64,000 nt of DNA. It comes from Dyella telluris (lineage in GTDB: Bacteria > Pseudomonadota > Gammaproteobacteria > Xanthomonadales > Rhodanobacteraceae). The notes beneath the pieces were generated by a model, which had not been told where the DNA came from, did no database searches, and worked only from the letters and a program-made list of their open reading frames with translations. The stretch is from NCBI RefSeq assembly GCF_014297575.1, contig NZ_CP060412.1:4650001-4714000 (forward strand). The letters run 5' to 3'. The translations under genes and the position numbers were made by a program. This document shows, one piece after another, positions 317 through 40,741 of this stretch. Position 1 is the first letter of the stretch. Every line of letters starts with the position of its first letter.

Positions 317-344
317 GGTCCGCTTTCGACCCAAAGCGGACCTT
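315..344. repeat. hairpin repeat, longest copy
   Basis: Perfect inverted repeat with 12-bp arms (AAGGTCCGCTTT and its complement) around a CGACCC loop. It is one of nine copies in the window. The other eight lie between 11021 and 14052. It directly follows, and overlaps the stop codon of, the small membrane gene upstream. Confidence 0.9.
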
Positions 345-2246: not shown

Positions 2247-3603
2247 GAAAGGACGGTCGCTCGCCACTCAGCTCGTTTGGCGGGTGATCCTTGTGCAGAT
2301 CGCCATCGTGGCTAGCGCGATCGTGACATTTACTTACCTGATGTACCGAGACGACGTTTCGTACATGGACGATCAGATCACGTCCATTATCGCGGATTCG
2401 CTGCATACCGGTGATCATGGGCAGCTGAAACTCGTACCGACAAACAAATTTGAAGAAACCGCGAAGTCGTTCCCCGCGCTTTGGTTTGTTGTCGAAGACG
2501 AAAAAGGCCAGCGTTTGGTCTACGGAGATATGCCGGACGCCTATCGGTCGCTGGTGGCCGCTCTTCCCCACCTGCAGCATGCTGATATTCACGACAGATC
2601 GGCACCCTATGCGTTGACCATGCGAACGGAGCGAGTTAGAGCGACGGTGGGTCCCGTTCTCGTTATGGCCGGTGGCGCAGCGACGGGAAGCCTGGGCGCG
2701 ATGCTTCTCTTTATCGCGCACTACATACTTTGGCCGATCCTACTGCCGCTGGTCGTCGTCACGTTTGTCGTGTTGCCGTGGCTTGTAAGGCGAGCTATTT
2801 CGGGCGTGCAGGATGTAGCGAACCAATCGCAGATGATCGACATCGACGAACGTGGCATGCGGTTGGAGGACAAGGCGGTTCCTTTGGAGCTTCGGCCACT
2901 AGTTCAGTCTTTCAATGCTGCGCTAGAGCGCCTGCAAGAGGGCTACGATGCCCGGGATCGGTTCCTAGCTAGCGCAGCGCACGAGCTTCGCATGCCCATC
3001 GCTGTACTCGACGCCAGGATCGAGACACTGACTACGGGTGTTACTCGCCTTCGCTTGCGGGGTGATGTTGCTCGCTTGGCTAATCTCGGTGAACAGTTGC
3101 TCGATCTCCAGCGGCTAGGTAAACAGCACAGCGCTTTCATCGCTATCGATCTCGCCGCGTTGGCCCGCGAAGTAACGAGTGATGTAGCACCGTTGGTGGT
3201 TGATGCTGGTTATGAGATCGCATTGAATGCGCCAGAGAAGCCGGTGATGATTGCCGGCGACAGCTTGGCCCTCAGTCGCGTTCTAACTAACTTGATTCAG
3301 AATGCTGTCGCCCATGGTGGCGGAAAGGGCTTGATATCGGTCGACGTCGAAACGTCCGGAACTCTCGGTGTTCGCGACGAAGGCCCTGGGATCCCTCCAG
3401 AGGATCGGTCGCGAATTTTTGAGCCATTCCATCGGTTGCGCCAAAGCGCAATTGGCGCGGGTCTAGGCCTGCATCTGGTGCGCGAGATTGTGACTCTTCA
3501 TGGCGGACGCATCGATGTGACCGAAGCTGCGGGCGGCGGTGCATGGTTTCGCGTTCGATTTCGACAAAGTCCTTTGCCACTGGTTGGAAGCGGAACCCGT
3601 TAA
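2239..3603 (+). CDS. OmpR-partner sensor histidine kinase
   Basis: The 454-aa inner-membrane kinase has TM1 at about residues 15-36, a periplasmic sensor of roughly 115 residues, TM2 at about 153-182, a HAMP-like linker, and a HisKA domain with the phosphoacceptor H248 in AAHELRMP. The ATPase domain shows the N box (LTNLIQNAVAHGGG), G1 (DEGPGIPPEDR), F box (FEPFHR) and G2 (GAGLGLHLV). All catalytic boxes are intact. The gene starts 8 bases before the end of the regulator gene, so the two are co-translated. The last ~15 codons resemble a sequence at 4095-4140, which suggests that a dispersed repeat forms the 3' end of the gene. Confidence 0.93.
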   Translation: MAKKGRSLATQLVWRVILVQIAIVASAIVTFTYLMYRDDVSYMDDQITSIIADSLHTGDHGQLKLVPTNKFEETAKSFPALWFVVEDEKGQRLVYGDMPDAYRSLVAALPHLQHADIHDRSAPYALTMRTERVRATVGPVLVMAGGAATGSLGAMLLFIAHYILWPILLPLVVVTFVVLPWLVRRAISGVQDVANQSQMIDIDERGMRLEDKAVPLELRPLVQSFNAALERLQEGYDARDRFLASAAHELRMPIAVLDARIETLTTGVTRLRLRGDVARLANLGEQLLDLQRLGKQHSAFIAIDLAALAREVTSDVAPLVVDAGYEIALNAPEKPVMIAGDSLALSRVLTNLIQNAVAHGGGKGLISVDVETSGTLGVRDEGPGIPPEDRSRIFEPFHRLRQSAIGAGLGLHLVREIVTLHGGRIDVTEAAGGGAWFRVRFRQSPLPLVGSGTR

Positions 3604-3763
3604 GTTTTCCGTCGAGGGGCAGGTCAGCGCGTCGCTACTCAGCCATAACGTTAGTCAGCCAGCGAGCGCGTATTTTTGCGATCGCAACTATGGTGCGTGG
3701 CGTTGGCGATACGCCATCGGGCCGGCGCCGCCTGGCGACGATACGGTTAAGGGTCGATTCTTA

Positions 3764-3994
3764 TCAAGGTGAGACGCCGCGTCGAACAAGTACCAGGTCA
3801 CCGTCGTCCTCCGGATAGTGCACGAGGCCGCCGAAATCCGTTTTGATCATCGCTCCCCTCCCTAGGTACTCCCAATCCTCGCCGCCCGGCAGATAGCTCT
3901 TGTCATCGATGGCTGCGATCACCGTACCTCGGTACTTTCCGGCAATCTGAACCACGTCCCCTGCCAGAACGAGTTGCTCGTCGCTGTACTTCAT
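3764..3994 (-). CDS. small SH3-like conserved protein, unknown function
   Basis: The 76-aa protein begins MKYSDEQLVLAGDVVQIAG and ends in a stretch with GLVHYPEDDGDLVLVRR. It is predicted to be all beta, and similar short proteins (D-x-V-x-I-x-G, then W-x-Y-L-x-x-G-x-x-I, then G-L-I/V-H-Y) are common orphan genes in proteobacteria. No function is established as far as I know. A strong ribosome binding site (GGGAGGGG) sits a few bases before the ATG at 3994. It lies alone between the histidine kinase and the old yellow enzyme operon. Confidence 0.7.
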   Translation of the reverse strand: MKYSDEQLVLAGDVVQIAGKYRGTVIAAIDDKSYLPGGEDWEYLGRGAMIKTDFGGLVHYPEDDGDLVLVRRGVSP

Positions 3995-7848: not shown

Positions 7849-10029
7849 TCAGAACTTCCAGTTGAGGCTCACCGAGGCGTTGCGCGGCGCGCCGTAGTAT
7901 CCGATCTCGTAGAGGCTGCCGATGTATTTCTTGTCGGCGACGTTGTTAATGTTTGCGCGCAGGGTGACGTTCTTGACCACGTCCCACGCGGCAAAGACGT
8001 TGTATACCGCGTAGGCGCCCTGGCGAACCGCAAAACCCGTATAGCTGTCCAGATTGGCGGTCTTGTCGCGCCAGTTGCCGCCGGCACCGAATGAGAGTGC
8101 TTCGTAGCCAGGCATGTGGGCGCTCAACAGGAAGTTGGCGGTGTTGCGCGGAATCCACGGATTGACGCGGCCATCGACGGTGGTCAGCAGGGTCTTGTCG
8201 CCGTCCAGCGTCAGATGCGTGTAGCCCAGCACGAGGTCGACGTAATCGTTGATCTTGCCAGTGGCCTCAAATTCCCAACCCTTCGATTCCACATCTTCGC
8301 CGACGTAGTAGTACTGGAACGTGTCCAGGTCCATGCCGGCATAGGTGCCCAGGTTCTTCTGCTTGGCGTCGAACACAGCCAGCGTGGTCAACAGGCGCTT
8401 GTCAAACCAGTCGGCTTTCACGCCGGCTTCGTAGTTCTCGCCCTTGGTCGGCTTGAGATAGACGTGATTGACGTCGTAGTAATCCTGCGGCTGGAAAATA
8501 TCCGAATAGCTGACGTAGCCGAGCACATGGTCGGTGAAGTCGTAGGTCAAGCCTCCGTAAGGGCTGAGCTTGGTCTGGCTCTGCGAGCCCGAGGTGGTGT
8601 CGTTACGACTGAAATCGGCGTAGTTGAAACCGATAACGGCTTTCAACTTATCGGTGAAGGTCAGACGCGTCGCGCCGAAGACGCGCTGGAGATGCTGGCT
8701 GAGCGTGTCGTCCAAGGTCCGGTCGCCCCACGTCGGCTTGGGAATGGCGTCACCGGCATAGGGAAAGCCCGGCAGTTCACCGAATGCCGGCTCGCTGGAA
8801 TCGATCGGGTACTCGTATTGAGGATAGTTGCTATAGGCGCTGCTGACGCCAAACATCACTTCCTGATCGTGGCCGAGCCAATCGAAATGGCCGTTGACGC
8901 TGACGTTACCCATCTGCTCGGTGGTGGTGTCGTAACCGCGGTACGCCCAACCGACGAGACCCTGGTGGGTCCGCGGATCAAGGCCCGTCGTGGTGTACGC
9001 GTCAAGCAGCAGATCGTCTTCTTCGACGCGCTGGTAGTTGTACGTGGCCTTTACTTGCCAGTTGTCGGAGAGCGCGTAGCTGTATTCGATGAAGGCGTCG
9101 TTGTTCTGCGTGTTCCAGAACGTCCAGTCCTGCCCCGTCGACGCGCTGCGGTTCCAGCCGATCTGGCTGCCGTCGACCAGGTTGTAGGTCAACGCGCCCC
9201 ACATGTTGCCGTTGGTCTTGGCCTTCTGATAGCTGTAGCCGAGGGTCAGCGTACCTTTGTCGCCAACCTGGCCATCGACGACGCCGTAGAGGTAGTCGCG
9301 CTTGTTGTCGAGGCCGCGCAGGTATGAACCATCGTCCTCGTGCACCGCGATGATTCGCCCGGCCCAGCTGCCGCTGGCGGTGAACGGCGTGGAGTAGTCC
9401 AGCTGTTCGCGCGTGCTGCCCCACGAACCGTAGGTGATCCCTACTTCGCCCTGCGCCTCATTGGTCGGACGCTTGCGTACGTAGTTGATCGTGCCCGACG
9501 CATTGCCGACGCCGGTCAGCAGGCCGTTCGCGCCACGGATGACTTCGATCTTGTCGTAGCCGTAGGAATCGAGCGCGCCGGTCACGATGCCCCAGCCGTT
9601 CGGCATGCCGACGCCGTCGATCTGGGTGTTCTCGATGTCGAAACCACGCGCCGTGTAGTTGCTGCGGTCGGTTTCCCACTGCTCGACGTTGATGCCAGTG
9701 GTCAGACGCAACGCATCATTGACGTTGTTGGCACCGAAATCGCGCATCTGCACGCTGTCCACCACGCTGATCGACTGCGGCGTGTCCTTGATGTCCAGAT
9801 CAAGGTTGGTGGCGCCATTGCTGACGCGGTCGGCGCGCTGGGCGACGACCCGCACCACACCAAGATCGGCGACCTTAGCTTTGGTCTTGTCGGCCGTCGC
9901 GGTCGTGCTCTTGGTAGAAGCGTCGTCCGTGGACTGAGCATAGACCTGCATTGCAAGCATCAAGCTGATGGCGAGCACAGACAGACGCGAGGCACGCATG
10001 GCTTGCGCGCGACGGAAAGCTTGGGACAT
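7849..10029 (-). CDS. TonB-dependent ferric-siderophore receptor
   Basis: The protein is about 726 aa from the chosen start. It has a signal peptide (basic start, LSVLAISLMLAMQVYAQ), a plug domain beginning NLDLDIKDTPQSISVVD and containing IEVIRGANGLLTGVGNASGTINYVRKRP, and then a 22-strand barrel ending in W-K-F. The plug motifs match the FhuE/FpvA type that imports ferric hydroxamate or pyoverdine-like siderophores across the outer membrane with TonB energy. An upstream ATG at 10095 would put the Fur box right against the start codon, so I prefer 10029, which leaves a 5' leader downstream of the box. Neither start has a clear ribosome binding site. No siderophore biosynthesis gene is adjacent. 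Confidence 0.93.
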   Translation of the reverse strand: MSQAFRRAQAMRASRLSVLAISLMLAMQVYAQSTDDASTKSTTATADKTKAKVADLGVVRVVAQRADRVSNGATNLDLDIKDTPQSISVVDSVQMRDFGANNVNDALRLTTGINVEQWETDRSNYTARGFDIENTQIDGVGMPNGWGIVTGALDSYGYDKIEVIRGANGLLTGVGNASGTINYVRKRPTNEAQGEVGITYGSWGSTREQLDYSTPFTASGSWAGRIIAVHEDDGSYLRGLDNKRDYLYGVVDGQVGDKGTLTLGYSYQKAKTNGNMWGALTYNLVDGSQIGWNRSASTGQDWTFWNTQNNDAFIEYSYALSDNWQVKATYNYQRVEEDDLLLDAYTTTGLDPRTHQGLVGWAYRGYDTTTEQMGNVSVNGHFDWLGHDQEVMFGVSSAYSNYPQYEYPIDSSEPAFGELPGFPYAGDAIPKPTWGDRTLDDTLSQHLQRVFGATRLTFTDKLKAVIGFNYADFSRNDTTSGSQSQTKLSPYGGLTYDFTDHVLGYVSYSDIFQPQDYYDVNHVYLKPTKGENYEAGVKADWFDKRLLTTLAVFDAKQKNLGTYAGMDLDTFQYYYVGEDVESKGWEFEATGKINDYVDLVLGYTHLTLDGDKTLLTTVDGRVNPWIPRNTANFLLSAHMPGYEALSFGAGGNWRDKTANLDSYTGFAVRQGAYAVYNVFAAWDVVKNVTLRANINNVADKKYIGSLYEIGYYGAPRNASVSLNWKF

Positions 10030-10096
10030 GAGGAGATTTTCCAAGAAAGACGAGTAGGGGCCTGCGCTGGGCAAGCTCTTAGTGCGGCGCATCATA

Positions 10097-10115
10097 AATG
10101 CGAATAGATCTCATT
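10097..10115 (-). promoter_or_regulatory. Fur box
   Basis: On the minus strand the sequence reads AATGAGATCTATTCGCATT, which matches the inverted-repeat Fur box AATGAGAATCATTCTCATT at 15 of 19 positions. It lies 68 bases upstream of the TonB receptor start chosen here, as expected for iron-repressed transcription. Confidence 0.75.
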
Positions 10116-10408
10116 TGCAATGCTTTCGTTAAATGTGTGCCGCGGACCGCCGGGCGGCGGCCAGCCCTAGATTTCTTGTAACCGGGCCATTGGGGGAAAC
10201 GAGCTCAAGTGGGCGAGGTGCTCTCTGGAGGGGCATTCGCAGGGTTCACCCGTGGCCGGCAGGCACTTGGAGGTGGCCCCCAGGCCTTCATTTGTCTTGC
10301 ACAAAACTGACGATAACCTGCCGCAGCACCTATTGCCACGTCTATTGGATTGGCGAAGTGGCGACCCGGTGTGCGTGTTTGACCCACCCAACTTGTAAAG
10401 GGAATTGC

Positions 10409-10933
10409 ATGAAACCGACACACAACGTTTTGGCTGTCGCCGTTCTGGCCACGCTCGTTCCCATGGCCGCCTTGGCGGGAACCGCGATCCGCGACCAAGT
10501 CCTCAATAGCTCCTCAGTAAGTACGGTGCAGCTCACGCCTGGCTCGACCTCCTACAACGGTTGGGCCGCGTGGATCCAACAGCAGCAGACTAGACCGGAC
10601 ATTGCCCAGGTAGTGCATGGCATTGGCACCATCACCGTGACGACGTCCTCGGGCAGCTCGAGCGCACAGGCCGCGCCCACTATGTCCGGTATCACCGCCC
10701 TATCTGCCCCGGCCGCGACGACCGATCCATCGCCAGTGGTGTTGCCGCAGACGGGTACACCGGGGCAGACGATCACCATTACCAACAAGATTCCCAATGG
10801 GGGCGAGCAGGTCTGGACCTACACATGGACGATAACGACTACCAGCGGTGAGAGCAGCGGTGGCTGGGTGCTGACGAGCTCCGGAGGCTGTGGCAACCCG
10901 AACTGCGGCATTGTGATCACCAATCCCGGCTGA
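10409..10933 (+). CDS. secreted Ser/Thr-rich protein, unknown function
   Basis: The 174-aa precursor starts with a clear signal peptide (MKPTHNVLAVAVLATLVPMAALAG). The mature part is low in charge and rich in Thr, Ser and Gly. It includes TITVTTSSGSSSAQAAPT and TYTWTITTTSGESSGGW and ends with a small Cys pair (GGCGNPNCG). The composition suggests an exported beta-rich or surface protein. The longer upstream reading frame has no secretory start and is not used. AAAGGGA precedes the ATG. It is followed by a hairpin and then by the first repeat of the cassette-like array. It could be the first gene of that array, though its 87-base tail and own terminator make it different from the others. Confidence 0.65.
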   Translation: MKPTHNVLAVAVLATLVPMAALAGTAIRDQVLNSSSVSTVQLTPGSTSYNGWAAWIQQQQTRPDIAQVVHGIGTITVTTSSGSSSAQAAPTMSGITALSAPAATTDPSPVVLPQTGTPGQTITITNKIPNGGEQVWTYTWTITTTSGESSGGWVLTSSGGCGNPNCGIVITNPG

Positions 10934-10960
10934 CCCCTGGCTCTCTGTGGTCGTAATGGA

Positions 10961-10978
10961 GCCCCGCTGCGGCGGGGC
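10961..10978 (+). terminator. GC-rich hairpin terminator
   Basis: GCCCCGC and GGCGGGGC pair around a short TG-rich loop, followed by CTTCT and TGGTTT. It ends the secreted-protein gene and separates it from the array. Confidence 0.65.
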
Positions 10979-11020
10979 CTTCTACTGGTTTCCACGTTTG
11001 TTTGATCTGGGCTAGAGGAT

Positions 11021-11044
11021 GTCCGCTTTCGACCCGAAGCGGAC
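11021..11044. repeat. hairpin repeat, array copy 1
   Basis: Arms GTCCGCTT and AAGCGGAC around TCGACCCG. It marks the left edge of the array, 77 bases after the stop-proximal hairpin of the secreted-protein gene and 50 bases before the next start. Confidence 0.9.
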
Positions 11045-11094
11045 AGTTGACGTGCGACAAATATTGGCAATTTGGCGAACCAACGAGGTGGCAA

Positions 11095-11589
11095 GTGCGG
11101 ACACCCAAATACGCAATTGGGCTTAACAACTCAGCCCTGCTCTCGCTGGGCGTAGCTATGTTCCTGGCCCTGTCTTTTTCCGGCATCGCTCAGTCAACCG
11201 AGTTGTCATGCGAGGGAAGTGCGAAAGGGCCGAATTACGCGCTTCACCTGTACCTGGTTGGCCCAACGGTCACGGGATTTCGGTTCGAGAGCGCTGACCA
11301 AACCGGCTCCGGGGACTGCCAGTTGCAGGCCTTTCGGGACGGGCGTGATGCTTCGCGGTTCTTGAAGGCGGAATGGGCTTCAAGCCTTGCGGTCACGACG
11401 ATTTCCATCAAGGATGCCGACGGCTTTCATGACCCCAAGGACTACGCTACGGTCGCGATTCGAAGGGGTCGAGACGGCTACTCCTTGGCATATCACATGG
11501 ATGGCGCCGCGAGCGCATGCGGCGTCCGTGGCTACCTGCCAAATGAGGTGGCGGTCGCAGCAGGGCATAAGCGTTGCGTCGAAAGTTGA
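11095..11589 (+). CDS. array gene 1: exported or membrane-anchored Cys-containing protein, unknown
   Basis: The 164-aa protein has a hydrophobic N-terminal segment (SALLSLGVAMFLALSFSGIAQ, a signal peptide or anchor). The predicted mature domain contains four cysteines (LSCEG, GDCQL, SACGV, KRCVE), consistent with two disulfides in the periplasm. I do not recognise the family. The frame is open upstream through the hairpin repeat, but that part is a repeat-encoded artefact. GTG at 11095 has GAGGTG four bases before it. The next repeat follows 31 bases after the stop. Confidence 0.6.
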   Translation: MRTPKYAIGLNNSALLSLGVAMFLALSFSGIAQSTELSCEGSAKGPNYALHLYLVGPTVTGFRFESADQTGSGDCQLQAFRDGRDASRFLKAEWASSLAVTTISIKDADGFHDPKDYATVAIRRGRDGYSLAYHMDGAASACGVRGYLPNEVAVAAGHKRCVES

Positions 11590-11620
11590 GCTAGTCGGAG
11601 ATATACGGCGGTAATGGAAT

Positions 11621-11644
11621 GTCCGCTTTCGACCCATAGCAGAC
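11621..11644. repeat. hairpin repeat, array copy 2
   Basis: The left arm GTCCGCTTT is intact. The right arm reads ATAGCAGAC with two changes from consensus, making this a weaker hairpin. Confidence 0.85.
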
Positions 11645-11676
11645 ACTTCGGATCCGAGGTCTAAAAGGTCATTTCT

Positions 11677-11961
11677 ATGCAGAAGCTGCTCGATATCGGA
11701 TATGCCATTGAGATCCCCGGGCAAGGCGCTGTGCTCGTCGGTCGCACCGAGCAAACAGATGCGGTTCTTTGTAAGGGTGACGTGTTTGACCTCATTCTGA
11801 CGACGGGCGAGCGGCGCACGTTAACCGCCCTAGGCGTGTCGCCGTTCACTAAGTGCTTCACGGAAGCGACGACGTTGGGCGTCCTGGTTGGTGACCAACT
11901 GGACACGTTGGATGCAGTGGATGGTTCCGAGCTATGGATCAATTGGCCGCCGGGGCAATAA
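11677..11961 (+). CDS. array gene 2: small beta-barrel protein resembling translation-factor domain II
   Basis: The 94-aa protein reads I-E-I-P-G-Q-G-x-V-L-V-G-R then G-D-x-F-D-L-I-L, with a later T-T-L-G-V-L-V-G. This order resembles the domain II barrel of EF-Tu-type GTPases (I-x-G-x-G-x-V-x-x-G-R, then V-x-x-G-D). There is no GTPase domain, so it would be a stand-alone barrel. Small proteins of this kind exist in many genomes without known function. The start at 11677 has AAGGTC upstream. The stop is 17 bases before the next repeat. Confidence 0.55.
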   Translation: MQKLLDIGYAIEIPGQGAVLVGRTEQTDAVLCKGDVFDLILTTGERRTLTALGVSPFTKCFTEATTLGVLVGDQLDTLDAVDGSELWINWPPGQ

Positions 11962-11978
11962 TCGAGTCGCTTCGAAAC

Positions 11979-12002
11979 GTCCGCTTTCGACCCAAAGCGG
12001 AC
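11979..12002. repeat. hairpin repeat, array copy 3
   Basis: Perfect consensus copy with 9-bp arms GTCCGCTTT and AAAGCGGAC around CGACCC. A spurious reading frame (encoding the run NVRFRPKADM) crosses it. Confidence 0.92.
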
Positions 12003-12054
12003 ATGGCGAATCGGATGTCTATATCTCTTCATCAGGGGCCGGGGCGTCGTCATC

Positions 12055-12414
12055 ATGAGTGCAAAATTTCCATTTGCCGTTCGCCGCCGTTTCATGGAAC
12101 TTCCCGAAGCGAAAGCAGACGAGATGATCGAGGCTTCGCAACGGAGCTGGAAGCCTTGCGTATACGTCTTGCTCGCTTCTCTATACGTGACGCCTGTCTT
12201 GCTATTTTTGGTTGGCGTCGCAGTGGGCTGGATGCTGGCACCATTACCTTGGCTTTCGGCTGGTCTCTATCTGGCTGGACTGATGCTCTTGATCTGGCTC
12301 ACGCCAAAAGTTGTGTCCAGGGTCGTCAAGCCCAAGGCCTTCAAGCGCATCAGGGCAGCAGGGTTCAACTATTTCTGCGGAATAACCGGTTATTCCATCA
12401 ATAGGAAGCGCTGA
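12055..12414 (+). CDS. array gene 3: two-helix membrane protein, unknown
   Basis: The 119-aa protein has a charged N-terminal third (MELPEAKADEMIEASQRSW), two transmembrane helices at about residues 36-60 and 65-84, and a basic C-terminus ending NRKR. This predicts an inner-membrane protein with both ends probably in the cytoplasm. I do not recognise a family. A larger overlapping frame starting inside the preceding repeat is rejected as repeat-driven. It is followed by the next repeat after 27 bases. Confidence 0.6.
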   Translation: MSAKFPFAVRRRFMELPEAKADEMIEASQRSWKPCVYVLLASLYVTPVLLFLVGVAVGWMLAPLPWLSAGLYLAGLMLLIWLTPKVVSRVVKPKAFKRIRAAGFNYFCGITGYSINRKR

Positions 12415-12441
12415 AGAGCACATCTCAGTGAAGTGATGAAT

Positions 12442-12465
12442 GTCCGCTTCCGACCCGAAGCGGAC
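12442..12465. repeat. hairpin repeat, array copy 4
   Basis: Arms GTCCGCTTC and GAAGCGGAC. The third-from-loop pair is changed on both sides compared with copy 3 (T-A to C-G), a compensatory change that keeps the hairpin. Confidence 0.9.
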
Positions 12466-12503
12466 ATAACCCTGGCTAGTAGTTTTTTGCTTCTTTGACC
12501 GGA

Positions 12504-12857
12504 ATGGCCGTGACTCGACCTATATCAAGCATTGAAGCAACGGTTCTGGAAAATGCCGTCCGGATTGGGGCCGTCGGCAACTTGTCGCCAGAAACGGTCG
12601 CCTCGATAAGGCAACTCAGCGTGACCGCAACATGCAAATGTGGCTGCGCGACGGTCTGGTTCGGTCCAAAGGGCGATGCCGCCAAAGGGAGCATTGCCGC
12701 CGAGGCATGTGGCACATGGAATGGCGTGACCATCGATATCATCGTCTGGTGTACTGATGGGCAAATCGTTGGGCTTGAAGTGGTCGGAGCAGGCAAGGTT
12801 GGCCTGCCCGATCCCACGTCGGTGCGATCCATGGAGCAGTGGTTTCAGGCACCGTGA
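12504..12857 (+). CDS. array gene 4: soluble small protein with CxCGC motif, unknown
   Basis: The 117-aa protein has an N-terminal helical part (SIEATVLENAVRIG), a cysteine cluster C-K-C-G-C near residue 45, and a C-terminal run DIIVWCTDGQIVGLEVVGAG followed by LPDP. The last part resembles small uncharacterised proteins in which D-G-x-x-x-x-L-E-V is conserved. The cysteines could bind metal. A TTG at 12495 in the same frame is an alternative start. Neither start has a good ribosome binding site. The next repeat begins 13 bases after the stop. Confidence 0.55.
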   Translation: MAVTRPISSIEATVLENAVRIGAVGNLSPETVASIRQLSVTATCKCGCATVWFGPKGDAAKGSIAAEACGTWNGVTIDIIVWCTDGQIVGLEVVGAGKVGLPDPTSVRSMEQWFQAP

Positions 12858-12870
12858 GTCTGGCTATAAG

Positions 12871-12894
12871 GTCCGCTTTCGACCCGAAGCGGAC
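12871..12894. repeat. hairpin repeat, array copy 5
   Basis: Arms GTCCGCTT and AAGCGGAC. It lies 13 bases after one stop codon and 18 bases before the next start codon, so almost nothing else fits between the two genes. Confidence 0.92.
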
Positions 12895-12912
12895 AGTTCC
12901 ATGTGAGGAGAA

Positions 12913-13302
12913 ATGGCGAATCGATTGCCGGCCAGACGGATTGCATACGAAAGGCCCCTGACCGGGTCGGCCATACACCGCACCATGTCGGACCTGTTTC
13001 CCCGTAGGAACGACTACGGGAGCGGCTCATTCGATGAATTGGTCCCAGAACTGAGGGCGCTCGGAATTAGCTGCGCTGGGGATTTCAAGCGCCTGATGAC
13101 CCGCTATAGGCGTGCGCTGCTCAGGTTTGATCGAGCCCCGTTGTCAGAGTTCGAACGCCGACTTGCTATCGACGATTACGGTGCGGATTTCGTGTCGGAT
13201 GCCACGAGACGCCAATATTGGTTCGCCTACCCTGGCCTGGTACGCACAGCTATAGAGATGCATTTCGGCGAAGATGCGGTGCCATCTAAGCGTGAGGAAT
13301 AG
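12913..13302 (+). CDS. array gene 5: soluble helical protein, unknown
   Basis: The 129-aa protein is strongly charged and has no membrane segment. The N-terminus is basic and arginine-rich. The middle reads FDELVPELRALGISCAGDFK, followed by RRALLRFDRAPLSEFERRLA, and the C-terminus is acidic/basic (DAVPSKREE). The composition is compatible with a nucleic-acid-binding or adaptor protein, but no family is recognised. The start is well supported by GAGGAG six bases before the ATG. An internal ATG at residue 25 (MSDLFPRRNDY) is the alternative. Confidence 0.6.
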   Translation: MANRLPARRIAYERPLTGSAIHRTMSDLFPRRNDYGSGSFDELVPELRALGISCAGDFKRLMTRYRRALLRFDRAPLSEFERRLAIDDYGADFVSDATRRQYWFAYPGLVRTAIEMHFGEDAVPSKREE

Positions 13303-13316
13303 GTGGCCACCGGAAG

Positions 13317-13340
13317 GTCCGCTTCCGACCCATAGCGGAC
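13317..13340. repeat. hairpin repeat, array copy 6
   Basis: Arms GTCCGC and GCGGAC with a TTCCGACCCATA centre. It lies 14 bases after the preceding stop. Confidence 0.88.
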
Positions 13341-13368
13341 CTAATGGGTGACTGGAAAAGGGGGCGAT

Positions 13369-13653
13369 ATGGATAGCGATGAGATGCTGACTGCGGTGCA
13401 TGCCATAGTCGATAGGAATCGAACGGACAACGTTCGCGAGGCGGCATTCCGCTGGGCGGCTTCAGAGTGTCGGCTTGATCTCGGCTACTACACACAGTCT
13501 GCACCTACGCCGGATGACGCGGAGCTATGTGAGCTTTCCTTGGCAGAGATCCTTGGGGAATTCCCAGGAATCAAGGCTGCCAGTACCGAGCAGAAGGAGG
13601 GGTTGGCGCCTGCGGACATGCAAGTCGTCTATCGGAAGAAAGAGGTCCGCTAA
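13369..13653 (+). CDS. array gene 6: small acidic protein, unknown
   Basis: The 94-aa protein begins MDSDEMLTAVHAIVDRNRTDNVREAAF (in the order read, with a short helix up to about residue 35) and continues with two cysteines and an acidic middle (TPDDAELCELSLAEILGEFPG). I do not recognise it. The ATG at 13369 has AAAGGGGG in front, better than the upstream GTG of the same frame. The TAA stop falls inside the outer arm of the following repeat, as for the gene at 8-316. Confidence 0.55.
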   Translation: MDSDEMLTAVHAIVDRNRTDNVREAAFRWAASECRLDLGYYTQSAPTPDDAELCELSLAEILGEFPGIKAASTEQKEGLAPADMQVVYRKKEVR

Positions 13654-13654
13654 G

Positions 13655-13678
13655 GTCCGCTTTCGACCCATAGTGGGC
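13655..13678. repeat. hairpin repeat, array copy 7
   Basis: The left arm is GTCCGCTTT and the right arm ATAGTGGGC. Two of the changes give G-T wobble pairs rather than open mismatches, so the stem is kept. Confidence 0.85.
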
Positions 13679-13706
13679 ACAGAGCAGAACAAGGGGAAGG
13701 GGAAGG

Positions 13707-14012
13707 ATGGAAGTCTATTACCGCGGCCACGCCTTCATTTTTGAACCATCTACTGAGTCTCCGTGGAAAGGACGTCTCCGCCTAGATGATCAGTCGCACG
13801 CACTCCTCGCGAGGCTCATCGATTCGGAAGACGACGATTGGTGCTTGGATGGCGACGGCGAGCGGCTTCCGGCCGAAAAGCTCTTTCTGAGCACGCCTTG
13901 GAGCGTGAAATCGCCGCAGGGTCGGGTGGGCCTCATCTGCCGGTTCATTGACCACAGAGATGGCTCTGTTGTGTTCAGCACGCCGGATACATACCTTGGC
14001 GATTCGATTTGA
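13707..14012 (+). CDS. array gene 7: small soluble protein, unknown
   Basis: The 101-aa protein begins MEVYYRGHAFIFEP and has an acidic cluster (IDSEDDDWCLDGDGE) and a predominantly beta C-terminal half (GRVGLICRFIDHRDGSVVFST). No known family is recognised. A purine-rich leader (GGGGAAGG) precedes the ATG. The last array repeat follows 16 bases after the stop. Confidence 0.58.
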   Translation: MEVYYRGHAFIFEPSTESPWKGRLRLDDQSHALLARLIDSEDDDWCLDGDGERLPAEKLFLSTPWSVKSPQGRVGLICRFIDHRDGSVVFSTPDTYLGDSI

Positions 14013-14028
14013 ATCGTAGAGCTCTAAG

Positions 14029-14052
14029 GTCCGCTTTCGACCCAAAGCGGAC
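14029..14052. repeat. hairpin repeat, array copy 8 (right end)
   Basis: Perfect consensus copy. The pairing extends outward as CTAA-G on the left and C-GTTAG on the right. It is the last copy. Downstream at about 14094-14125 there is a diverged relative of the direct repeats at 32447 and 34301. Confidence 0.92.
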
Positions 14053-14331
14053 GTTAGCAAGGCCGGGCGTTTCCTACCCGACGGCGGCTTAGGGCAGGGC
14101 GATTAGGTCAAGTTATCGCGGCTAGATCATCAATCGATGCAATCTGGTGGCCGTTTGGGCATATCACCCATTTTTCTGCGGAATGACGTGCGAATCCCAT
14201 CTGGTGATGCGTCCAGCAGGATCAGGCTATGGTTGCGCAAGATCCGCCAATACGATGCGAGGCATCGCTTTCTAGCCTGTGCGGTGCAGGGACATGTGAT
14301 CCATTCACCGCATCAGAGCCGGGAGGCAAAT

Positions 14332-15132
14332 ATGTCAAAGGGAAAAGTGCTTGTAGTCGGCTCCAACGCTACGCGCATCGAAATTCAAGGCGGTAAAACG
14401 GGGCCGACAGGACAATATCTCAACGAAACCGTGGTGCCTGTCATGGCGCTGATCGACGGCGGCTATGAAGTAATCTTGGCGACACCCGACGGAACCAAGC
14501 CGCATATCGACGAAGCATCACTGTCCGCCCAGCACTTTGGCGGAGATGCGAAAGCCTTCGAACGCGCCAAGGCTTTTTATGCGGGCGACCCGTCAATGAA
14601 TCGCGTGCGCACTATACGCCAGGTCATAGATGATGGCCTGGATTCGTATGCGGCAGTGTTCGTGCCCGGCGGCCAAGCTCCGGTCGTTGACCTCATGCAA
14701 GACCCGGAGCTGGGCGAGGTGCTTCGGCACTTCCACACTCAGAAGAAGCCGACCGCGCTGTTATGCCATGGCCCCGTCGCGGTGGTTGCCGCGCTCCCCA
14801 TGGCTCGTGAGTTTCGTGCCGCCCTGGTGGCCGGTGACCACGCAAAGGCGGAGGCATTGGCCAAGGGGTGGCAGTACGCCGGCTACAAGATGACAGTTTT
14901 CAACGCGTCTGAAGAGAAGTACGTCGAAGACCAGATCCTGCATGGAAAGATGTATTTCACCATGCCGGAAGCATTGACGGCAGCGGGCGGAATGGTTGTC
15001 AGCGGCACAGTCGATTTCGCACCGCATGTCATTGAGGACCGCGAGCTCATCACAGGCCAGAACCCACGTTCGGATCAACTGCTTGGCGCAACATTGCTGA
15101 AGGCGTTGGAACGGGAGGTGGTGGCGATTTGA
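14332..15132 (+). CDS. DJ-1/PfpI family protein
   Basis: The 266-aa protein has a type 1 glutamine amidotransferase-like fold. The nucleophile elbow is LLCHGPVAV, preceded by AAVFVPGGQAPVVDLMQDPELG, with a C-terminal RELITGQNPRSDQLLGATLL. The length and the E-containing N-terminal part (FERAKAFYAGD insert) fit the long ThiJ/PfpI branch. It is probably a glyoxalase III-like enzyme or a stress chaperone. The start at 14332 follows GGGAGGCAAAT. The open frame further upstream has no ribosome binding site. It begins a run of small redox and detoxification genes on the plus strand. Confidence 0.88.
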   Translation: MSKGKVLVVGSNATRIEIQGGKTGPTGQYLNETVVPVMALIDGGYEVILATPDGTKPHIDEASLSAQHFGGDAKAFERAKAFYAGDPSMNRVRTIRQVIDDGLDSYAAVFVPGGQAPVVDLMQDPELGEVLRHFHTQKKPTALLCHGPVAVVAALPMAREFRAALVAGDHAKAEALAKGWQYAGYKMTVFNASEEKYVEDQILHGKMYFTMPEALTAAGGMVVSGTVDFAPHVIEDRELITGQNPRSDQLLGATLLKALEREVVAI

Positions 15133-15270
15133 TTTGCTCCATCGTCACCTGCAAGAACCCGCAAGTGGGCTGGTGGCGCCATATCTGTCTGGTTGCGGGT
15201 GATGGTGGCGACTGATTCTTTTCAGTCGCAGCATGGCCAACGACAAACTATCCATAAGACAGGAAACACG

Positions 15271-15687
15271 ATGATGGAAAAGAAACATACGGGACAGTGC
15301 GCGTGCGGAAACGTGCAATTTGGGTTTGACGGCGATCCCGATTTTATCGCCGACTGCTATTGCAAGGATTGCCAGAAGGCCGGTGGCGGCGCCATGGCCA
15401 CGTTCTTTGCCATACCTGCCGACGATTTCACGGTTACCAGCGGCAAGCCACGGGCTTTCCACTATACGGCCAATTCCGGCAATGGTCTTGATCGAAACTT
15501 TTGTCCAGAGTGCGGAGCTCGACTGTTCACGAGCAACCTGGAAGGGTTTCCGGGCATGGTATTCGTGACGATCGGAAGCCTCGACAACGCCGCAGGTATC
15601 GCCCCGAAGCTGGAAATGTTCACGTCGCGGCGCTTGCCTTGGTTGCATGCACTGGATCTTCCGCAATTTCCCCAGATGCCATCCTGA
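15271..15687 (+). CDS. GFA/CENP-V family zinc protein
   Basis: The 138-aa protein has the zinc-binding pattern of the GFA family: GQCACGNV near the N-terminus, CYCKDCQKAGG, and RNFCPECGARLF. In the founding family member this fold spontaneously links glutathione and formaldehyde, but most members are uncharacterised small-thiol or carbonyl-handling proteins. CAGGAAACACG precedes the ATG. It is followed after 29 bases by an ABM-fold monooxygenase gene and preceded by a DJ-1 gene, a context of carbonyl stress. Confidence 0.88.
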   Translation: MMEKKHTGQCACGNVQFGFDGDPDFIADCYCKDCQKAGGGAMATFFAIPADDFTVTSGKPRAFHYTANSGNGLDRNFCPECGARLFTSNLEGFPGMVFVTIGSLDNAAGIAPKLEMFTSRRLPWLHALDLPQFPQMPS

Positions 15688-15716
15688 GCTTCCCGAACAT
15701 ATCAAGGAGATGCGTC

Positions 15717-16046
15717 ATGGCTGCCAGCGTAAAGGCGATCGCAGTGCTCACGGCCAAGGCAGGGTGCGAAGACGAACTCAAGGCGCTGTTGCATGGCATG
15801 GTTCAGCCTTCGCGGGCTGAGCCAGGCAACCTGCAATATGAACTATGGCGGGATGCTGAACACCCGGGCCGCTATGTGCTCGAAGAAAGCTATCGCGATT
15901 CTGACGCTGTTATCGAACACCGAGCGAGCGACCACTACAAGGCATATCTATCCCGGATCGGGGGCATGGCCGATCGATCGGTTATCGTGCTTGCTCCCGA
16001 GGATGTAGTGAATAACCAGGTGCAAAGCGGCCGGCCTGGCCGATAA
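15717..16046 (+). CDS. antibiotic biosynthesis monooxygenase (ABM) domain protein
   Basis: The 109-aa dimeric alpha-beta-barrel protein matches YgiN-type ABM sequences: KAIAVLTAKAGCEDELKALL, then S-R-A-E-P-G-N-L-Q-Y-E-L, then the conserved E-x-Y-x-D-x-D-A-V-x-x-H (LEESYRDSDAVIEH). These proteins oxidise quinol-like substrates without cofactors or act as heme- or stress-related proteins. AAGGAGA lies before the ATG. A diverged paralogue is at 22227. Confidence 0.9.
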   Translation: MAASVKAIAVLTAKAGCEDELKALLHGMVQPSRAEPGNLQYELWRDAEHPGRYVLEESYRDSDAVIEHRASDHYKAYLSRIGGMADRSVIVLAPEDVVNNQVQSGRPGR

Positions 16047-39652: not shown

Positions 39653-40741
39653 TCAGTGTTCCTCTAGAAGGCGCGCTGCCGGATTATCGGTTGCACTACC
39701 CGCCTGAAAGTATCCCATCACGCTGGACACCGCCCGATGCTCGGTCATCGCCATGATCGCCGGCAACGGCACGCCCTGTCGGCTCGCTTCGGTGACGAAA
39801 CCTGACCGCAAACTATGCCCACCAAAGTCTCCCTGCAGACCCGCGAGTTTCGCGCGCCGCTGCACGATCTCGCCCACCGCGGCCGGGGAGAGGGCAGGTC
39901 CAACTCGTTGCTTCCACAGCCGCCGAAAAATCGCCCCCTCGGTAATGCTGGCTGCGGCCAGCCAGGCCTCGAGTGCCTGGGCGGCCCGATCTAAAACCGG
40001 TTTGTCGGGTGTCGAGGTCGCGCCCACGCCGGCCTGCTGGGTCTTGCTGTGCTCCAGTCGGTAGATAAAGCCCTGGGGACCGATGCGGCGCAAGTCGCGC
40101 AGATTTGCCGCGGCGACCTCGCTGCGACGCCGGCCGCCGCTGGCAAAGCCAAAGCAGAGCAGGGCGCGGTCACGCAGGCCTTCGAGGCTGTCGTCACAGG
40201 TGGCCAGCATGGTCTCGAGCTCGGCGAGGGTGATCGCGGTCTTCTTGCGCGGGCGCTCGCCTCGCTTGACCGCGGCGCGGGCGGCGCGGCTGAGCACCGT
40301 GCGAATGGCCGGCTGCTCGCACGGATTGGTCACGTGCTTGAGCCGATGCGCCGTGGACAGCACCGCGACCCGATGACGGACCGTCGCCAGCGTCCATGGG
40401 CCCAGGTTGGCTTTGAGGCCGGCGGCCACCAAGGCTTGGTCGATGGTCGGCGGCAGCTCCCAGGCCAACTCGCCATCGGCGGATCGGCGGACCACATGAT
40501 CGACCACGAACTGCAGCACCGTGGCTTCGGACACCGGCAACGTTAGTTCGACGCCGTAGCGCGCCGTGTGCCAGCCGGCCCAGTAGCGCAGGGCACTGGC
40601 GTAGCTGCGAGTGGTGTTGGCGGCGGCCGCTTCGGCGAGCAATTCGCGCACGGCGTCGGCGGCCTGCTGCGCCAGCTGGATCGGCAACGCCAGGCTGGCG
40701 GCCGGCTGGGCAAGGGGCGAGATCGTGGAAATATCTTTCAT
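39653..40741 (-). CDS. tyrosine recombinase / phage-type integrase
   Basis: The 362-aa protein has an N-terminal SAM-like core-binding domain (AAANTTRSYASALRYWAGWHTARYG, read in sequence from about residue 38) and a catalytic domain. R of box I is in FGFASGGRRRSEVAAANL. H-x-x-R is in GGHSLRSGFVTEASRQG. A second His or Trp region is in MTEHRAVSSVMGYFQ, which carries the tyrosine nucleophile. It resembles integrases of integrative elements that sit next to KfrA-like genes. There is no ribosome binding site, and the start region overlaps a dif-like sequence. It is divergent from the KfrA-like gene and probably mobilised or once mobilised part of this island. Confidence 0.88.
   Translation of the reverse strand: MKDISTISPLAQPAASLALPIQLAQQAADAVRELLAEAAAANTTRSYASALRYWAGWHTARYGVELTLPVSEATVLQFVVDHVVRRSADGELAWELPPTIDQALVAAGLKANLGPWTLATVRHRVAVLSTAHRLKHVTNPCEQPAIRTVLSRAARAAVKRGERPRKKTAITLAELETMLATCDDSLEGLRDRALLCFGFASGGRRRSEVAAANLRDLRRIGPQGFIYRLEHSKTQQAGVGATSTPDKPVLDRAAQALEAWLAAASITEGAIFRRLWKQRVGPALSPAAVGEIVQRRAKLAGLQGDFGGHSLRSGFVTEASRQGVPLPAIMAMTEHRAVSSVMGYFQAGSATDNPAARLLEEH

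Follow-up and report, generated by a model that had tools for sequence, protein, structure and literature searches.

A probable array of mobile single-gene cassettes at a short, recombinase-type site in Dyella telluris

Layout of the locus

A 64-kb stretch of the genome of Dyella telluris (contig NZ_CP060412.1, positions 4,650,001 to 4,714,000; hereafter the window) contains, between positions 11021 and 14052, eight direct copies of a 24-bp site which alternate with seven single genes of the plus strand. The locus very probably consists of seven mobile cassettes in a row, each made up of a single gene and a site of about 30 bp, with a short tyrosine recombinase as the putative enzyme. A search of the window with the pattern GTCCGCTTT-N6-AAAGCGGAC, allowing up to three mismatches, returned ten matches, compared with 0.04 expected from shuffled sequence. 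Eight of them make up the array, all on the plus strand and each within three mismatches of the consensus GTCCGCTTTCGACCCAAAGCGGAC, and two lie outside it, at 318 and 4033. The original prediction, made from the letters of this DNA, had described an alternation of eight repeats with seven plus-strand genes, with stop codons shortly before and start codons shortly after the repeats. The coordinates of the sites and of the open reading frames (ORFs; Table 1) agree with this description, with gaps of 1-37 bases from stop to site (31, 17, 27 or 37 for two overlapping frames, 13, 14, 1 and 16 bases for cassettes 1 to 7) and of 18-52 bases from a site to the next plausible gene start.

Table 1. Sites and cassettes of the locus, in window positions
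Feature	Positions	Strand	Remarks
Outlying site	318..341	+	Exact site copy; right end of a one-cassette array whose partner site is outside the window (G000:C1:4649931)
Site 1	11021..11044	+	GTCCGCTTTCGACCCGAAGCGGAC; left array end
Cassette 1	11045..11620	+	ORF 11047-11589 (earliest start); alternative GTG 50 bases after the site
Site 2	11621..11644	+
Cassette 2	11645..11978	+	ORF 11677-11961, 94 amino acids
Site 3	11979..12002	+	Exact consensus
Cassette 3	12003..12441	+	ORF 12055-12414, 119 amino acids (preferred), or overlapping ORF 12003-12404
Site 4	12442..12465	+
Cassette 4	12466..12870	+	ORF 12495-12857, 120 amino acids
Site 5	12871..12894	+
Cassette 5	12895..13316	+	ORF 12913-13302, 129 amino acids
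Site 6	13317..13340	+
Cassette 6	13341..13654	+	ORF 13348-13653 (GTG start; alternative ATG at 13369); stop codon 1 base ahead of site 7
Site 7	13655..13678	+	3 mismatches
Cassette 7	13679..14028	+	ORF 13707-14012, 101 amino acids
Site 8	14029..14052	+	Exact consensus; right array end

Properties of the repeated site

Sites were collected from the genomes by their likeness to the consensus, with up to four mismatches. Among 456 distinct sites, the conserved span runs with sharp edges from -3 to +27, about 30 bp in total, and has the form AATGTCCGCTTYCGACCCRWAGCGGACATT. The 6-bp centre, CGACCC, is conserved as strongly as the arms, with the proviso that conservation inside the 24 bases is partly a product of collection by consensus likeness, which leaves the outer edges unaffected. 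The innermost arm positions, 8/17 and 9/16, form Watson-Crick pairs in only 56-59% of the sites, and the arm pairs of the 456 sites display no covariation beyond independence, apart from a slight excess at the outer pair -1/25 (45% vs 40%). A hairpin conserved for its structure is disfavoured by this lack of covariation, in sites collected by their likeness to one consensus, and the earlier designation of the repeat as a hairpin appears overstated in view of the mismatched inner pairs and the conserved centre. A core site read by a protein, in which two inverted arms enclose an asymmetric centre, fits better than a folded hairpin, and with such arms and a 6-bp centre the repeat looks like the core of a Cre/Xer-type recombination site.

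Repeats that follow stop codons at a short distance could also be transcription terminators within an ordinary row of genes. Nevertheless, no terminator-like match was found at any repeat of the window array, a run of at least four T within 14 bases past the site occurs in only 21 of 630 sites, and an Rfam scan of window positions 9000-16000 gave no match up to an E-value of 1, on which a structured RNA was rejected as well. Terminators retain practically no probability.

Arrays in other genomes

The window genome (4.99 Mb) contains 28 copies of the site with up to three mismatches, 23 of which are found in four same-strand regions, and no copy of the reversed pattern. With up to two mismatches, the site is present in 18 of 20 Dyella genomes, and in 22 of 41 genomes when the window's own genome and its relatives are counted. 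Furthermore, the pattern GTCCGCTTYCGACCCRWAGCGGAC was matched in at least 120 stretches across genera, with Lysobacter, Rhodanobacter, Luteibacter, Pseudoxanthomonas, Massilia, Caulobacter, Brevundimonas, Sphingomonas, Phenylobacterium, Pseudomonas and others among the matches listed. Outside the window, the same arms with the centre TGGCCC seem to be behind the spurious ORFs beginning with MSALGQKRT in many rhizobial genomes, for which no paper was found.

Neighbouring sites share the strand in 265 pairs vs 22 opposite pairs, a count over 141 loci that includes some overlapping ones (L054 in L019, L009 beside the window; G and L numbers denote our genomes and loci), and later counts dropped repeats such as L054, L141 and others. 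Intervals shorter than 100-150 bp or longer than 1000-2500 bp were left out of the orientation, ORF and homology counts. Of the Dyella intervals, 169 of 178 and 61 of 63 have a longest sense ORF that exceeds the longest one in antisense to the site, as do 16 of 18 Lysobacter intervals and 46 of 55 intervals of a mixed group of other loci that still contains some Dyella and Lysobacter. In the 159 and 60 Dyella intervals whose sense ORF outranks 95% of shuffles, the median gap from stop to site is 17-18 bases. The association of the repeat with gene ends, which had been put forward as a check on the cassette explanation, therefore holds throughout the genus.

The cargo is diverse. The 147 ORFs scanned, which comprise 146 of 297 listed cassette ORFs and the alternative frame of cassette 3, matched 30 Pfam families, and no family is represented by more than three members. 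One Dyella cassette (L167:4708-5589; G002:C1:2152707) encodes a beta-lactamase-like protein (PF13354, 3.7e-43), so that resistance-type genes can be among the cargo. An IS110-family transposase was also observed among the arrays of this genome (PF02371 and PF01548; L169:6324-7439). In Caulobacter sp. 17J80-11 (L172, L173, L174 and L176; for example L172:7831), arrays tend to end in a second site type, GTCCGCTCACCACCCAAAGCGGAC, and the two types directly abut once, at L172:5777 and 5801.

Movement of single units

To compare array contents, 444 intervals from 98 loci were aligned without their sites, homology being a blastn or tblastx match at 1e-6. This yielded 107 cassette pairs homologous between loci, and in none of 120 same-side neighbour comparisons were the neighbours homologous too. 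Of the seven window cassettes, three have a homologue elsewhere in the genus, each in a separate species and next to different cassettes. The homologue of cassette 5 in G011 is 88% identical over 463 bp and comes with a complete upstream site and with the downstream site up to base 13. The homologues of cassette 1 in G017 and of cassette 4 in G013 are both 78% identical and start at a site, and the interval of the latter holds a second ORF. All three have a whole site at their start and different cassettes upstream. The downstream site of the G011 and G017 homologues is limited to its first 13-14 bases (GTCCGCTTYCGAC..), after which unrelated sequence follows. These sites (L219:117-140 and the end of L220) are interrupted within the CGACCC centre or at its border, perhaps by a site-targeting insertion sequence.

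Cassettes are also shared between genera, as in the pairs Dyella mobilis and Rhodanobacter DHG33 (95.7% identity) and Rhodanobacter 7MK24 and Dyella G002 (91.6%), and within a genome. Different arrays of G002 carry an identical cassette at 2140096-2140444 and 4137056-4137404 and a 99.9% identical one at 2151151-2152669 and 4111525-4113043. Constancy of gene content among relatives had been named as a finding that would refute the cassette explanation, and the content proved not to be constant, with single cassettes recurring beside other neighbours across arrays, species and genera. As read from these alignments, the comparison shows single gene-plus-site units moving between arrays, between species and between genera.

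The exchange point

The ends of the shared segments cluster at the sites. Out of the 150 ends of 75 blastn segments, 110 fall inside a site or within eight bases of one in at least one locus, the expected share of ends being 0.067 per locus and about 0.13 for either of two loci. A finer picture is given by 15 cassette pairs with an identity of 84% or more, whose flanking sites differ at 45 positions in the outer halves vs 16 in the cassette-side halves (upstream site 21 vs 11, downstream site 24 vs 5). The inner halves are thus shared more than the outer ones, which puts the exchange inside the site, around the CGACCC centre. In the cleanest pairs (the 99.9% pair of G002, L019/L094, L019/L179 and L128/L169), the upstream sites differ only up to position 9 and the downstream sites from 16 or 17, so that CGACCC is bracketed. 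Two comparisons depart from this: the G002 pair has a single downstream difference at position 6, and L055/L135 differ upstream at 16-17. Comparison of these half-sites shows an exchange point that lies within the site and near its centre, and the pattern is what conservative recombination at the centre would leave behind.

About 20 bases preceding a site (TTTGAATCGTAGAG..CTAA) are common to window positions 14004-14028 and to L220:1476-1500, the genes being otherwise different, and perhaps reflect an older exchange inside the gene end.

Two other explanations bear on these observations. Ordinary homologous recombination could shuffle genes between repeats, given that identical short repeats are usable as homology and that its crossovers would also fall within the repeat. 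Yet 24-30 bp is short for such an exchange, and neither the one-gene-per-repeat regularity nor the presence of inverted sites around one recombinase family (see below) is explained by it, so that we regard it as quite improbable. The second explanation is a palindrome of the repetitive extragenic palindromic (REP) kind, which spreads on its own into the gaps after stop codons, the genes not moving along. The many dispersed copies of a short palindrome are in keeping with this, but the genes move with half-sites and without neighbours, 265 of 287 neighbour pairs share their orientation, and the same motif occurs in many genera. Moreover, REP/RAYT elements have a tetranucleotide, GTAG or GGAG, before the palindrome, and positions -4 to -1 of the site read NAAK instead. 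Independent spread of this kind is very improbable, still more so than homologous recombination.

A short recombinase as the candidate enzyme

The candidate enzyme is a tyrosine recombinase of about 207 amino acids which consists of the catalytic domain only. The protein of Sphingomonas rhizophila matches PF00589 (Phage_integrase) at 1.3e-19, and residues R57, K85, H154, R157, H180 and Y189 are invariant in 38 sequences; their catalytic roles are presumed here, by their spacing relative to XerD. A structural model of the recombinase fits the catalytic domains of Cre and XerA in a fold search, a result that excludes no other family because only chains ranked high by Foldseek were aligned. At a length of about 207 residues there is no room for a core-binding domain, unlike in Cre and the Xer enzymes.

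In many cases the recombinase gene sits between inverted copies of the site. Of the 98 recombinase places listed, 30 were used, each being the top match in its genome; site-like cores were found at the expected place and in the expected direction in 14 of 60 flank windows, compared with 0.27 in shuffled sequence and none in the opposite direction. In the ten genomes that have both elements, 7 of 16 sites lie within 3 kb of the recombinase, where 0.03 would be expected. A layout resembling that of intI and attI, with the gene divergent from the adjoining site, is seen in L047, L099, L126, L186 and L187, and in L047 the array itself is seen. L047 belongs to Dyella sp. OK004, with the recombinase gene at 3182-3805, and the gene is also present in Dyella terrae and D. 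halodurans. In distant genomes (L196, L200, L204, L205 and L210), the sites framing the recombinase are of a variant type whose centre is CCGGCC, such as CCGGCCARWAGCGGACATT, which suggests that sites and recombinases may diverge together. Eight recombinase-bearing genomes hold 0-15 copies of this variant, with no clear arrays.

With regard to plasmids, no near match to the window array was found, the 30-base site occurs in 6 of 72,556 plasmid records (E <= 0.05), and the recombinase is found in 414 plasmid records (E <= 1e-25). A small plasmid carrying the recombinase also bears an annotated IS110-family transposase (L228:6651-7685).

The recombinase gene was not found in the window genome, which has seven PF00589 matches. 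Full-length tyrosine recombinases of this genome were rejected as the local enzyme, as no site lies beside the two examined in the stretches read. One of these is about 3.6 kb from an array (G000:C1:4864354), and the other is in the window, at 39704-40234 on the minus strand, with an ORF of 362 amino acids. In the absence of a recombinase gene, the four site clusters of the genome may be orphan arrays or may be served by another enzyme.

On this basis, the recombinase of about 207 amino acids is likely the enzyme that moves the cassettes. Two direct sites would recombine at their centres, releasing a circle that holds a single gene plus a complete site and could then insert at any other site with a matching centre; the asymmetry of the centre would keep all genes in one direction. 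The gene of the enzyme would often lie between inverted sites, one of which would open an array leading away from the gene, much as attI does beside intI. The original prediction had suggested a cassette system of a different recombinase, and the movement of units and the lack of an integron integrase lend support to it, with the short recombinase as the proposed enzyme.

A number of observations weigh against this account. Regarding movement, some of the 107 homologous pairs depend on short matches (43 bases and up). Conserved sites also attract the ends of blastn alignments, which makes the neighbour test stronger than the segment-end count. The half-site contrast is weak upstream (21 vs 11), and the 15 pairs are not independent. 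No circle, excision event or clean empty site was observed; in the search for an empty site through the neighbouring gene at 14332-15129, the two close homologues in G010 have no site in their 1.5-kb flanks, which match the window only downstream of that gene, so that no empty site is claimed. In Caulobacter sp. 17J80-11, the sense ORF is longer in only 7 of 23 intervals, most ORFs being antisense to the site. As for the enzyme, the flank windows and the 3-kb limit were chosen after matches had been seen in the same loci, two of the seven near sites adjoin recombinase fragments (G128 and G148), and 20 of the 30 recombinase loci sampled across the phylum have no recognisable site in the two flank windows. 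The recombinase is present in 2 of 20 Dyella genomes vs 18 of 20 for the sites, and co-occurrence is weak among 398 Pseudomonadota genomes, with 10 having both, 26 the site only and 54 the recombinase only (Fisher P 0.056). Finally, S. rhizophila has its sites directed at the recombinase, the reverse of the orientation at the other loci. At this locus (L178), arrays on either side run towards the recombinase, and the framing sites extend the palindrome to CTAGC..GCTAG.

The most serious competitor is that the cassettes are mobile but are moved by another enzyme, either the host XerCD acting on dif-like sites or some other recombinase, the short recombinase being a mere frequent passenger. Most site-bearing Dyella genomes do lack the short recombinase, other tyrosine recombinases are present, and dif likewise has inverted arms around a 6-bp spacer (PMC13141974). 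Conversely, the arms GTCCGCTTT are unlike the XerC and XerD binding sites listed in Table 1 of that article (compared by eye), and inverted sites frame the short recombinase in similar positions in several distant genomes. We consider another enzyme unlikely, with a modest share of probability left to it.

A possible second system of cassette capture

Beyond the locus itself, we lean, with less assurance than for the array, towards a second, independently built system of cassette capture beside integrons, in which a short recombinase and a lox-like, double-stranded site of 30 bp would trade small genes across Pseudomonadota. Under such a system, the conserved centre would make most sites compatible, so that distant genera would share one cassette pool. 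Integrons serve as the textbook example of the capture of gene cassettes. Surveys search for IntI and attC and would therefore miss arrays of the present kind. Among the titles and abstracts listed by one open-access library, none describes the site or the arrays, and the letters of the site and the derived peptides had no match; subscription journals and preprints were outside the scope, which makes this weak evidence of absence. If the proposal is correct, Dyella, Rhodanobacter, Lysobacter and probably other Pseudomonadota trade a pool of small genes, most of them unknown, along a route that escapes counting. The proposal also raises the clean question of whether one small enzyme and a 30-bp site are enough for cassette exchange without folded single strands.

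Comparison with known systems

Like the dif modules of Acinetobacter plasmids, the arrays described here have small gene modules, short two-armed sites with a 6-bp spacer and exchange within the site. In the dif modules as described in PMC13141974, sites alternate in orientation, modules are excised in pairs and spacers vary. In contrast, the present sites are direct repeats with one predominant centre, their arms are different and near-symmetric, and the window array lies in a 4.99-Mb contig. XerCD dif modules were rejected because the arms, compared by eye, differ and the sites do not alternate; the spacer length agrees.

Tyrosine recombinases of the FimB/FimE type are about 200 amino acids long, consist of the catalytic domain only and have their gene near inverted sites, all of which is shared by the short recombinase. 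No FimB/FimE model was among its five NCBIfam matches at 1e-3, the content of the library for these proteins not having been checked. The task here looks like cassette exchange, unlike the promoter switch of FimB and FimE.

The resemblance is closest to integrons and to clusters of attC sites lacking integron integrases (CALINs), with arrays of single-gene cassettes of mostly unknown function, all in one direction and with one site per cassette; in relatives only, the gene of a tyrosine recombinase diverging from the first site may be a further likeness, set against the opposite site orientation in S. rhizophila. An integron remnant, that is, an integrase-less cluster of unusually short attC sites, would follow the same logic, and integrase-less clusters are known (PMC8618304 and PMC12444791). 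Even so, no protein of the 20 Dyella genomes exceeds the cut-off of the integron integrase model TIGR02249 (265 bits), the best reaching 77 bits, and RYYYAAC with GTTRRRY within 60 bp is found in none of 630 sites, where 1.1 would be expected by chance from shuffles. Moreover, the site of about 30 bp, with its centre sequence kept, is shorter than attC, which the definition in PMC3053210 places at 57-141 bp between these two motifs. The lack of an integron integrase nearby and a repeat shorter than attC, both claimed originally, agree with these results, and a remnant of this sort is scarcely credible. The system also differs from integrons in having no IntI, with a candidate recombinase reduced to its catalytic domain, and in using the same type of site, free of the attC cores, at all positions. 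By the tests run, it works like an integron but is not one.

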